Positions 15,662 through 54,818 of a stretch of 64,000 nucleotides of DNA are shown piece by piece; positions within the stretch are counted from its first letter, which is position 1; every line of letters begins with the position of its first letter. The stretch lies in assembly GCA_016177735.1 (NCBI GenBank), contig JACOUS010000010.1:62001-126000 (forward strand), in the 5' to 3' direction. Below the pieces are notes generated by a model. The model was given only the letters and a program-made list of their open reading frames with translations, was not told the DNA's origin and ran no database searches. The translations under genes were made by a program, and so were the position numbers. The DNA is from Ignavibacteriales bacterium (GTDB taxonomy: Bacteria > Bacteroidota > Ignavibacteria > Ignavibacteriales > Melioribacteraceae).

Positions 15662-15734
15662 GCCACCTTAGCTCAGCTGGTAGAGCAGCGCATTCGTAAT
15701 GCGCGGGTCGGGAGTTCAAGTCTCCCAGGTGGCT
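15662..15734 (+). tRNA. tRNA-Thr (anticodon CGT)
   Basis: A 73-nt cloverleaf: acceptor stem GCCACCT / AGGTGGC with discriminator T, D-arm with AGCTCAGCTGGTAGAGC, anticodon stem GCGCA / TGCGC enclosing TTCGTAA (anticodon CGT at 15695-15697), and T-arm GGGAGTTCAAGTCTCCC. No 3' CCA is encoded. Confidence 0.96.
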
Positions 15735-27600: not shown

Positions 27601-28992
27601 ATGATGATGCACACAATTAAAAATGTACACTTCGTTGGAATTGGCGGCATAGGAATGAGCGGCATCGCAGAAATTTTGTTGAGTCAAGGTTTCAATATCA
27701 CCGGTTCCGATCTTGCAAAGACAGATGTTACCGAGCGGTTGGAAAATTTGGGAATAAAAATATACGAAGGACATTCAACAGAAAATTTGAAAGAGGCAGA
27801 TGTTGTTGTTTATTCTTCGGCGGTTACACTCGATAATCCCGAAGTCAAAGCCGCAGTCGAAAGAAAAATTCCGGTGATTAAAAGATCCGAAATGCTTGCC
27901 GAATGTATGCGCATGAAATACGGAATCGGAATTGCCGGCACACACGGAAAAACAACTACAACATCAATGGTTGGATTGGTGTTAACAGAAGCCGGAATAG
28001 ATCCCACAATTATAGTCGGCGGAAAATTGAGCAGTCTCGGTGGAACAAATGCACGGCTCGGCAAAGGCGAGTACATCGTTGTCGAAGCCGATGAATTCGA
28101 CAGAACATTTTTGAAATTGGCGCCGGTGATTGCGGCTATCACAACTTTGGAAAAAGAACATCTCGATACTTACAAAGATTTGGATGATATAAAATCGGCT
28201 TTCATAGAATTTGCAAACAAAGTTCCGTTCTTCGGTTTTGTTGTGCTCTGTTTGGATGAACCGGCTTTGCAAGATGTTATCCCGTTAATCAACAAAAAGA
28301 TTTTTACGTACGGGCTTTCGCCGCAAGCAGATATTCGTGCAACGAATATTAAGCATGATAAAAACTTTTCCGAATTCACCGTTACTTATCTCGGCAAAGA
28401 ACTCGGGCAAATTAAACTCAACATTCCCGGACTTCACAACGTGAAGAATTCCCTTGCAGCGTTAACGATAGCAAAAGAAATGGGAGTTGAATTCAACATA
28501 ATTAAAAAAGCACTCGAATCTTTCGCCGGTGTTTACAGAAGATTTGAAACAAAGTATGATAACGATGTTATGGTGATTGATGATTACGGTCATCACCCGA
28601 CGGAAATTGATGTAACACTCGATGGAATAAGAAGAGGATGGAACAGAAGATTGGTAGCGGTATTTCAGCCTCATCTTTATTCACGGACAAAAGATTTTTA
28701 TGCCGAGTTCGGCAGATCGTTTCTCAACTCCGATGTTTTCATTTGCACCGATGTTTATCCGGCACGCGAAAAACCGATTGAAGGAATCAGCGGCGAGTTG
28801 ATTGCCAACTCTGCAAAAAATTTCGGACACAAAAATGTTTACTACGAACCGGATAAAACGAAGCTGCCTGAACTGTTAAAAAATATTTATAAGAAGGGTG
28901 ATATAATTATCACGCTTGGCGCCGGAGATATCTGGAAATTCGGCGGGAAGTTTATTGATTATTTGAAAGTATCGCCGCGAGGCGGAAAATAA
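27601..28992 (+). CDS. murC: UDP-MurNAc:L-alanine ligase MurC
   Basis: 463 residues. The start VHFVGIGGIGMSGIAE, P-loop AGTHGKTTTT (about 113-121), YGHHPTEI and FQPHLYSRT are MurC signatures. It adds L-Ala to UDP-MurNAc. Three consecutive in-frame ATG/ATG/M codons (27601, 27604, 27610) leave the precise start open; TAAGGAAC upstream supports this region. murB, often next in other dcw clusters, is absent here. A hairpin and a structured repeat follow. Confidence 0.95.
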   Translation: MMMHTIKNVHFVGIGGIGMSGIAEILLSQGFNITGSDLAKTDVTERLENLGIKIYEGHSTENLKEADVVVYSSAVTLDNPEVKAAVERKIPVIKRSEMLAECMRMKYGIGIAGTHGKTTTTSMVGLVLTEAGIDPTIIVGGKLSSLGGTNARLGKGEYIVVEADEFDRTFLKLAPVIAAITTLEKEHLDTYKDLDDIKSAFIEFANKVPFFGFVVLCLDEPALQDVIPLINKKIFTYGLSPQADIRATNIKHDKNFSEFTVTYLGKELGQIKLNIPGLHNVKNSLAALTIAKEMGVEFNIIKKALESFAGVYRRFETKYDNDVMVIDDYGHHPTEIDVTLDGIRRGWNRRLVAVFQPHLYSRTKDFYAEFGRSFLNSDVFICTDVYPAREKPIEGISGELIANSAKNFGHKNVYYEPDKTKLPELLKNIYKKGDIIITLGAGDIWKFGGKFIDYLKVSPRGGK

Positions 28993-29043
28993 AATTTGGT
29001 GAATGGGGACTAAAGTCCCTACTACTGTATAGTGTTCTTAAAC

Positions 29044-29069
29044 TTTCCACTATCTAAAGATAGTGGAAA
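29044..29069. repeat. perfect 12-bp inverted repeat after murC
   Basis: TTTCCACTATCT and AGATAGTGGAAA separated by AA. It could fold as a ~10-bp hairpin between murC and ftsQ. No T-run follows (ATTATATT), so attenuation or mRNA processing fits as well as termination. Confidence 0.65.
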
Positions 29070-29081
29070 TTATATTCTGAT

Positions 29082-29180
29082 AAAATTGCCACGAGATTTT
29101 CCGTGTAAACGGAATCCCGCAAAGCGGTGATATCTCGTGGGATAAATTAAGGAAATTAAAAGCGGCTTTAGCCGCAATTT
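29082..29180. repeat. structured dispersed repeat, copy 1
   Basis: An outer 9-bp stem CCACGAGAT / ATCTCGTGG (29089-29097 with 29132-29140) encloses two hairpins: TTCCGT-GTAA-ACGGAA and CCGC-AAA-GCGG (extended by ATC/GAT). A third hairpin GCGGC-TTTA-GCCGC follows at 29162-29175. The same arrangement recurs at 54546-54645. Confidence 0.8.
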
Positions 29181-29217
29181 GAGCAGAGTAAATTTTAAGA
29201 GAAGTAATTAAAAATTG

Positions 29218-29991
29218 ATGACAAAAAAACAAAAAATATTCGGCGTGATTGTTCTTGTACTTCTGCTCGGTACAATCGGGTATTTATCGTTTGCCGTTAA
29301 AACCGATTCCGAATTCAAAATAGAAATCATTTCGCTTGAAGGAAACATTCATCTTTCAAAAGAAGATTATATGAAGTTCGCAAACTTGTCGGACCGGAAA
29401 GAATATTCGCAATTAACGATGCAGATAATAAAAGATAGAATTGAAAAACATCCTTACGTTCAAAGCGCCGATGTTCGTTACGATGGAAAGGGAAAAGTAT
29501 CCGTAAAAGTAAATGAAAAAGTTTTTGATTCACTTTTGATGAACGGCGAAGAGCAGTACATCTTAACCGAAAACTTGCAAGTTCTGCCGTTTATGTCTGA
29601 AACAAAAAAAATAGACTACCCCGTGATTTCAAATGCGTGGATAAATAAAATTAAAATTTTGTCGTCGTTAAAAAATAACGGTGATGTTGTAACAGCATCG
29701 AAAATAATTTCGGGAATAAAACTAATTAATGCCGAATTGTATGACGGGCTTTCAAATATTGATATGCGGAACGGCGGAGATATACTTTTATCCTTTTCAT
29801 TTCTCGATTACCCCGTTATTGTTGGCAGAGGAAATGAAATTAGAAAAATTGTTTACTTCAACAGTTTTTGGACTTACTTAAAAGGGAAAGAAATTAACAA
29901 CTACATGGAATACGTTGACTTGCGGTACAGCAATCATGTTTACCTGGGAATAACACAAGAAAATTTAGAAGCGGGGGAAAAACAATCATGA
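29218..29991 (+). CDS. ftsQ: FtsQ/DivIB-like division protein
   Basis: 257 residues from ATG 29218 (a TTG at 29215 precedes it). A short cytosolic tail, one membrane helix (IFGVIVLVLLLGTIGYLSFAV), a POTRA-like domain (ISLEGNIHLSKEDYMKFANL, then IEKHPYVQSADVRYDGKGKVSVKVNEK) and an FtsQ beta domain ending YVDLRYSNHVYLG. Family sequence conservation is low, but topology, the YVDLRY motif and position before ftsA make the call firm. It overlaps ftsA by four bases. Confidence 0.9.
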   Translation: MTKKQKIFGVIVLVLLLGTIGYLSFAVKTDSEFKIEIISLEGNIHLSKEDYMKFANLSDRKEYSQLTMQIIKDRIEKHPYVQSADVRYDGKGKVSVKVNEKVFDSLLMNGEEQYILTENLQVLPFMSETKKIDYPVISNAWINKIKILSSLKNNGDVVTASKIISGIKLINAELYDGLSNIDMRNGGDILLSFSFLDYPVIVGRGNEIRKIVYFNSFWTYLKGKEINNYMEYVDLRYSNHVYLGITQENLEAGEKQS

Positions 29992-54503: not shown

Positions 54504-54818
54504 GGAAAATTTTTCTTTCGACCTCGATAGAATTTGTTTGTGAAGAAATTGCCGCGAATTTTCCCGTGTAAACGGGATCCCGCTCAGCGGTGATAAGTCG
54601 TGGTGTTAAGATAACAAAAGCATAAGCGGCTTCAGCCGCAGTTTAATTTTCGAATTGCGACTATCCGAAGGATTCCTACGGAAAAGTCGAAATTATCTTT
54701 TATTCCGACCCCACACCTGAAGGTTGTGGCAATTTTAAAAATATAGAAATAAAATAGTTGTTTTTTTTGAAGGGCGAATCCTACTTAATTCTATTAACTG
54801 TACTTTAAGGAAAAAATT
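54504..54818. other. flippase-dut intergenic region
   Basis: 315 bases without a credible ORF, mostly taken by copy 2 of the structured repeat and a following hairpin region (CGACT at 54658 with AGTCG at 54685, enclosing TCCG / CGGA). The last ~80 bases are AT-rich and should include the dut promoter; TTTAAGGAAAAAATT precedes the dut start. Confidence 0.6.
54546..54735. repeat. structured dispersed repeat, copy 2
   Basis: Same design as copy 1 at 29082: outer stem CCGCGA / TCGTGG, inner hairpins TCCCGT-GTAA-ACGGGA and ATCCCGC-TCA-GCGG, third hairpin GCGGC-TTCA-GCCGC (54626-54639). A distal GTGGCAATTT (54726-54735) is the reverse complement, with one mismatch, of the left end AAATTGCCGC, so this copy may be a complete unit of about 190 bases. 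Confidence 0.75.

Follow-up and report, generated by a model that had tools for sequence, protein, structure and literature searches.

Two intergenic regions of an Ignavibacteriales bacterium contain the same elaborately folded sequence, and the question raised by this dispersed repeat is whether it is an RNA element or a palindromic mobile repeat, two readings which the initial annotation of the locus had left side by side. The stretch analysed here (the window) comprises 64,000 nucleotides of contig JACOUS010000010.1. The two copies which that annotation had described were both found at their places on reading the sequence, copy 1 between murC and ftsQ and copy 2 before dut, and a BLAST search of the genome aligned copies at different loci across 99 nt at 93% identity.

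Sequence and fold of the two copies

The compensatory change reported for the first inner hairpin is present in the sequence, the pair T29100-A29113 of copy 1 corresponding to C54563-G54576 of copy 2, and the loops differ as described (AAA versus TCA, and TTTA versus TTCA). The statement that the stems hold needs one correction for copy 2, in which the outer stem contains a wobble pair (G54554 with T54601) and a mismatch (A54558 with G54597). Folding of copy 1 was far more stable than that of shuffled sequences, with z scores of -5.8 as DNA and -5.3 as RNA, and none of 200 shuffles was as good. The overall architecture, an outer stem closing two hairpins and followed by a third hairpin, was likewise recovered; we read it as a single unit in which two REP hairpins bear tags in inverted orientation, the loop of the first one being filled by a two-hairpin cassette. 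An alignment of whole units, which retained 37 of the 40 copies identified by BLAST (L029, L040 and L042 were dropped because of a misaligned right hairpin), gave the order AATTG tag and 8-bp hairpin, A-rich spacer, short hairpin and CAATT, with the tags at the outer feet of the inverted pair (AATTG on the left, AATT on the right). The features of both copies and their surroundings are as follows.

29006..29019, no strand assigned: short hairpin GGGAC-TAAA-GTCCC (short REP in inverted orientation), read from the sequence, inside the 222-nt murC-ftsQ gap that has no counterpart in relatives
29047..29066, minus strand: 8-bp REP hairpin CCACTATC-TAAA-GATAGTGG in inverted orientation with the degenerate tag GGAAATT, read from the sequence
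29082-29144: core of copy 1, between murC and ftsQ, read from the sequence
29084..29088, plus strand: AATTG tag, at the base of the REP hairpin (alignment positions 3-7, invariant or at least 90% conserved in the 40 copies)
29089..29140, plus strand: REP hairpin, 8-bp outer stem formed by 29089-29096 with 29133-29140
29097-29099 and 29132, plus strand: loop bases TTT and A of the REP hairpin of copy 1 (sequence, fold and pair counts)
29100..29131, plus strand: 32-nt two-hairpin cassette (29100-29113 and 29114-29131) between loop bases TTT and A (comparison with plain TTYA-loop REPs, and pair counts)
29141..29161, no strand assigned: A-rich spacer, variable in the alignment
29162..29179, minus strand: short hairpin GCGGC-TTTA-GCCGC followed by CAATT (inverted tag), read from the sequence; among the 37 aligned copies AATT shows little or no variation
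54545-54607: core of copy 2, in the flippase-dut gap, before dut, read from the sequence
54547..54603, plus strand: REP of copy 2, with tag 54547-54551, outer stem 54552-54559 with 54596-54603, and cassette 54563-54594 (sequence and model search)
54626..54643, minus strand: short hairpin GCGGC-TTCA-GCCGC of copy 2 with CAGTT (inverted tag with one change), read from the sequence
54658..54689, minus strand: short REP whose TTT^A site carries a filling of 20 nt with two hairpins, reading CGAC-TTT, 20 nt, A-GTCG on this strand (by eye)

The hairpin at 29047..29066 has counterparts at other copies that carry GATAGTGGCAATT and inserts. Upstream of several copies (e.g. L002-L004 and L018), the CCACTATC..GATAGTGG hairpin often bears inserts such as CTTGCCCGC...GCGGG, single or in tandem, which are located elsewhere in its loop.

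Copy number and covariation

BLAST analysis of the genome (3.87 Mb, 44 contigs) gave 41 matches, of which 40 are copies and the other is a weak fragment (E 0.36). Two copies alone are insufficient to judge covariation, so more were needed, and these supply it. A covariance model was built from the 63-nt core of the 40 BLAST copies. Its search of the same genome returned 79 matches, 62 of which are copies at E <= 1.2e-10; the other 17 are 12 plain hairpins of 31-32 nt and five opposite-strand matches to the same copies. Among 43 of the 62 copies examined, 39 lie outside ORF calls and four inside.

In the 40 copies (39 distinct rows), standard pairs occupy 93.6% of the alignment cells, compared to 28-43% in control structures slid along the alignment. 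Changes on both sides of a pair were counted in 41 cells, versus a shuffle mean of 16, and none of 500 shuffles was as high. Counted by pair, double changes affect 6 of 21 pairs, which is not clearly above shuffles (35 of 500 reach 6), and the number of further pair types (17) does not exceed them (207 of 500). For one pair of the outer stem, 17 rows have G-C, 15 have C-G and the bases of 7 do not pair. Another nineteen copies, which were found by the model and had not been used in building it (three of the 22 new matches were omitted because their length was not 63 nt), showed 93.0% paired cells and 23 double-changed cells (0 of 500 shuffles), in a set that leans toward the fold because it was found by the model itself; neither the number of its double-changed pairs (168 of 500) nor that of its further pair types (265 of 500) was above shuffles. 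Tested statistically, double-changed cells thus exceed shuffles in both sets, and the suggested selection on structure is supported by pair covariation in the 40 copies, the 19 further copies and nine copies from other genomes (see below). The predicted three-way junction has been kept through compensatory changes.

A REP hairpin with a cassette in its loop

Plain forms of the hairpin were sought, as an 8-bp stem directly after an AATTG or AATAG tag, in 461 kb, comprising the window and 20 hand-picked stretches, several of which had been selected to contain known copies or Y1 genes. The scan gave 49 hits, including 21 with a 4-nt loop and six with a cassette loop (36 nt in five, 39 nt in one); the other 22 look like the 23 hits that the reversed control produced. 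Nine of the 21 plain 4-nt loops are located in the stretch of the Y1 gene on contig C38, and one, with a different stem, at the Y1 gene L036.

The plain REP loop consists of four bases, mostly TTTA or TTCA. All six cassette loops of the scan start with TTT and end with A, which the scan had not demanded, and among the 40 copies TTT is found in 38 rows and A in 37. Since plain loops read TTYA and cassette loops TTT...A, the cassette sits between loop bases three and four. The element can accordingly be described as a plain REP whose loop carries, at this point, a two-hairpin cassette of 32 nt, resulting in a predicted three-way junction. The type of stem tracks the cassette loop, AAA being present in 15 of 16 GAGA stems versus 5 of 24 other stems. 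Because the two are linked, the cassette-bearing REP probably spread as one unit, following one or few acquisitions.

Association of the plain form with Y1 transposase genes

Four Y1_Tnp genes are encoded in the genome (L034, L035, L036 and L037). The products of L034-L036 score above the cut-off for NF033573 (IS200/IS605) and below that for REP_Tyr_transpos, and L037 scores above the cut-off for REP_Tyr_transpos (NF047646). The gene L035 on contig C38 is flanked on both sides by arrays of hairpins of the form AATTG-CCACGATG-TTTA-CATCGTGG and related ones. Its 151-aa product, which contains the motifs DHIH, WQ and YINNQEEHH, is a predicted Y1 HUH transposase that fits the signature of TnpAY1 subclass 1.2, given as Y---Q--HH and DH[IV]H in the available text of Quentin et al. 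2018 (PMC6006769). By sequence, relatives of the protein with solved structures include the ISHp608 transposase. Regular expressions identified the Y motif Y---Q--HH in 31 of 32 proteins and the HuH pattern (D, E or N in first position) in 30. Of 160 genomes examined in the order, 119 have relatives of L035, but the 32-nt cassette is common just here, so that the gene alone does not explain the cassette.

The association of gene and hairpin was analysed for the 30 best L035-type loci in the order, own locus included, which are closest relatives sharing descent, though the letters of their stems vary. A hairpin with a perfect 8-bp stem and a 4-nt loop was found within about 150 nt upstream in 24 and downstream in 22 of these 30 loci, on both sides in 17 and on at least one side in 29. 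Among the control windows at two genes, taken from one family alone, it was present in 1 of 29 upstream and 1 of 29 downstream of murC, and in 0 of 29 and 1 of 29, respectively, at the flippase gene; windows at a distance of 740-900 nt from the Y1 gene were devoid of it (0 of 53). Outside the order, in other orders and classes of the phylum, the association is less strong: at least one such hairpin accompanies 10 of 18 Y1 loci, compared to 3 of 36 distal windows, and the other eight of these loci have none. Seven named relatives of the Y1 protein include five with a nearby hairpin, among them Candidatus Jettenia and a Chitinophagales MAG (some of the five probably represent the same organisms as other loci of the order set), and two, from Sphingobacteriia and Akkermansiaceae, with no such hairpin nearby.

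REPs flanking a Y1 gene, which is the criterion for a REPtron, were observed for the plain form only; in this genome, none of the cassette-form matches of the model is next to a Y1 gene. The unit shares its tag, stem style and loop site with the plain repeats that flank the Y1 HUH gene of the same genome, and the C38-type Y1 protein is its likely mobiliser.

The other Y1 genes have palindromes of different kinds. L034 (~1215-1480 and 1968-1985) and L036 (~1350-1475 and 1970-1995), which like L035 are of the subclass 1.2 type, are flanked by palindromes of their own, of the CCTCTACGAGG type and the CACCCCGA-TGAA-TCGGGGTG type. Upstream of L037 (G000:C26, ~1115-1178), a hairpin pair extends from GTAG to CTAC, and downstream there is a similar pair in which a few bases separate GTAG from the foot; REP systems with and without GTAG hence occur together in one genome. 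The gene for the closest relative of the C38 Y1 protein (L088/L249, G069:C289; 75% identical) has one in-frame TGA across the match and AATTG-tagged REPs on both sides.

Occurrence in other genomes

When applied to 164 genomes of the order, the covariance model had matches in 19 at E <= 1e-3. Matches of more than 50 bits were confined to the genome studied here, and most of the others are plain 31-nt hairpins. The cassette pattern occurs in four of 160 genomes of the order, at 25 places here, four in G005, one in G029 and two in G069. G005, G012, G069 and G113 contain a shorter version of 42 nt, whose loop is filled at the same site by a cassette of 22 nt. The search of related genomes, which had been recommended along with the initial annotation, thus led to nine shorter versions in four other genomes, in which 97.2% of the cells pair and 8 of 16 pairs are double-changed (0 of 500 shuffles). 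The scan behind this set demanded seven or eight of the eight outer pairs, so outer pairing is given by construction, and its reversed control yielded 13 hits; the informative part is the two inner helices, whose pairing had not been a scan condition and in which five of the eight pairs are double-changed. Omitted from the set were filled REPs with one outer-stem mismatch (L238 in G005 and L247 in G029), two REPs with other fillings (L236, minus strand, and L239), and four cassette-like sequences without a clear GC-rich outer stem (L243, L244, L245 and L248). Cassette-like sequences of the latter kind were noted in G069 (L243, L244), G061 (L248) and G121 (L251); like the mismatched stems of L238 and L247, they complicate the interpretation. 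The fillings in L236 (minus strand, ~463) and L239 (minus strand, ~353) of G005 are 30 and 28 nt in length and again bounded by TTY and A, and they are unlike the two-hairpin cassettes.

The exact cassette core had no match in the collection of named genomes, to which the genome studied here perhaps does not belong. A looser half-cassette pattern was found in two of 395 genomes of the phylum (36 places here and one in G121), in a sample that excluded G069 with its two 32-nt cassettes. A general scan for TTT, two hairpins and A was too noisy to be counted, with 50 and 20 hits in reversed controls, and only its tagged hits with a GC-rich stem were used, by eye.

Fillings of 22, 28, 30 and 32 nt, which differ in their letters, are thus found between TTY and A of 8-bp REPs. 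Together with the 20-nt filling of the short REP at 54658-54689 (seen by eye) and the existence of cassette-like pieces outside GC-rich stems, they would suit an explanation in which the filling itself is a minimal mobile palindrome, comparable to the paired ends of IS200/IS605, with the TTY^A site of extruded REP loops as its target. We regard this as unlikely, because a freely inserting filling fits poorly with the co-occurrence of stem type and cassette loop (AAA in 15 of 16 GAGA stems, 5 of 24 others), no transposase for it is known, and the counts of the general filling scan were no better than those of its reversed control, the other scan having had 13 control hits.

Gene junctions and orientation

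The murC-ftsQ junction was read in 30 loci, own included, of the 76 genomes with a match. The gap measures 222 nt here, whereas it ranges from -41 to +25 nt in 28 relatives belonging to the family, among them G097 (25 nt), the only further member of the genus that was searched; in a 29th relative, whose locus is cut by the contig (L148), an ATG occurs at +4. For the flippase-dut junction, 29 relatives' loci were compared (55 genomes with a match, own included), of which 27 were measurable. Here the gap is 315 nt, versus 7-135 nt in 22 of the 27; the other five are three gaps of 303-318 nt with other sequence, one with an extra gene (535 nt), and one with different palindromes of its own (L231, 280 nt). 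The element was seen in none of the 27 gaps read. At locus L223 (G143) there is an apparent extra small gene between flippase and dut. Both copies of the window accordingly occupy junctions that lack the element in the readable relatives (29 and 27, respectively), i.e. their presence is lineage-specific. An empty site that matches to the very base was not found, and the ends of the unit are therefore defined by conservation.

A cis-acting RNA is expected to hold a single orientation. Within the 43 of 62 copies examined, 35 have both neighbouring genes called; 16 of them point with and 14 against same-strand neighbours, three lie between divergent and two between convergent genes. Searches of Rfam at gathering score identified just a tRNA (15662-15734) in the window and assigned the element to no family; at E <= 1, 241 bases gave three weak matches to sRNAs (E 0.012-0.79), far below gathering scores. 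The even orientation, the lack of an Rfam family at gathering score, the absence of the element from the same junctions in readable relatives, and the tag and loop site held in common with repeats at Y1 genes all argue against dispersed copies of a structured RNA element (a cis-regulator, attenuator or small RNA) in which compensatory changes would preserve an RNA fold. Such an element would agree with the very stable RNA fold, with G-U among the standard pairs, and with the location of 30 of the 35 copies between same-strand genes, due to which many are probably transcribed; on balance we consider it quite improbable, and of the two readings offered by the initial annotation it is the mobile repeat that is favoured. 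That the copies are transcription terminators or mRNA-stabilising hairpins, seemingly mobile through intergenic turnover, is highly improbable, as termination requires none of the features observed, neither 93% identity across 99 nt at different loci nor conserved tags nor a three-way junction, even though 28900-29300 contains four terminator-like sites (0.4 in shuffles), three of them within the inserted stretch and on both strands.

Relation to known REP systems and possible mode of spread

We consider it likely that the repeat belongs to a REP family without GTAG and represents a non-autonomous, mobile DNA element resembling a REPIN, and judging from the sequence comparisons it is probably mobile. 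Like REPINs or BIMEs, i.e. REP doublets linked to RAYT or TnpAREP, it consists of short inverted palindrome pairs with a tag at the outer foot, is dispersed and mostly extragenic, and its plain form adjoins a Y1 HUH transposase gene. It differs from them in combining one long hairpin, whose loop houses the two-hairpin cassette, with a short one, and in its tag, AATTG or AATAG, in place of the 5' GT[AG]G tetranucleotide that is the criterion for GTAG REPs. The initial annotation had recognised no described family, which is correct with respect to Rfam, but the unit appears to work like a REP or REPIN.

A long structured loop has precedent in the GTAG-14 and GTAG-3 REPs, for which large self-complementary loops of up to 27 bp have been reported (Di Nocera et al. 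2013, PMC3733652); these REPs are GTAG-tagged, the interior of their loops is formed by complementary residues, and a two-hairpin junction is not described in the available portion of that paper. For TnpAY1 subclass 1.2, Table 1 of Quentin et al. 2018 has 'no' under REP, and the program used in that study, according to the accessible text, looked for GT[AG]G tags (PMC6006769). The genes considered here differ from the subclass as presented there in being flanked by REPs, which lack a GT[AG]G tag. Among the open-licence papers listed by literature searches, no title or abstract opening describes the element or subclass 1.2 REPs, and neither is described in the available part of the 2025 RepRanger paper (PMC12306157).

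Published TnpAREP proteins act on folded single-stranded REPs, and from a Marinomonas REP with a TTTA loop SELEX picks T12, T13 and A15 (PMC8266576, 2021, available text). The Marinomonas REPtron resembles the present system in its 4-base TTTA loop; unlike the latter it has a GTAG motif, and loop filling is not described in the same portion of the paper. The TTYA loops observed here fit the bases selected by SELEX, and we propose that the Y1 protein may read T-T and A. The repeat would fold in single-stranded DNA, for instance on the lagging-strand template, and the Y1 protein would recognise the tag, the stem and these loop bases, cut copies and join them to new sites. Tolerance of the cassette may be due to the position of TTT and A, which would remain next to the outer stem, with the two hairpins presumably pointing away, and the cassette-bearing repeat would then have spread as a unit in this lineage.

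A broader proposal, which we put forward tentatively and hold to be possible rather than probable, is that the proteins of subclass 1.2 are true REP transposases, to which a separate class of REPs lacking GTAG belongs throughout Bacteroidota, and that the TTY^A loop is an insertion site for two-hairpin cassettes of 20-32 nt. If this is true, the resulting REPs would be nested and contain a three-way junction, and no smaller mobile palindromes of a nested kind may exist. The finding gives a common branch of single-strand transposases, REP-less according to the 2018 listing, a probable substrate with a different tag, and it provides a natural series of loops, from plain TTYA to three-way junction, for asking how a Y1 protein reads a DNA hairpin. 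In this organism, the insertion lies between murC and ftsQ, genes that almost touch in the relatives examined.
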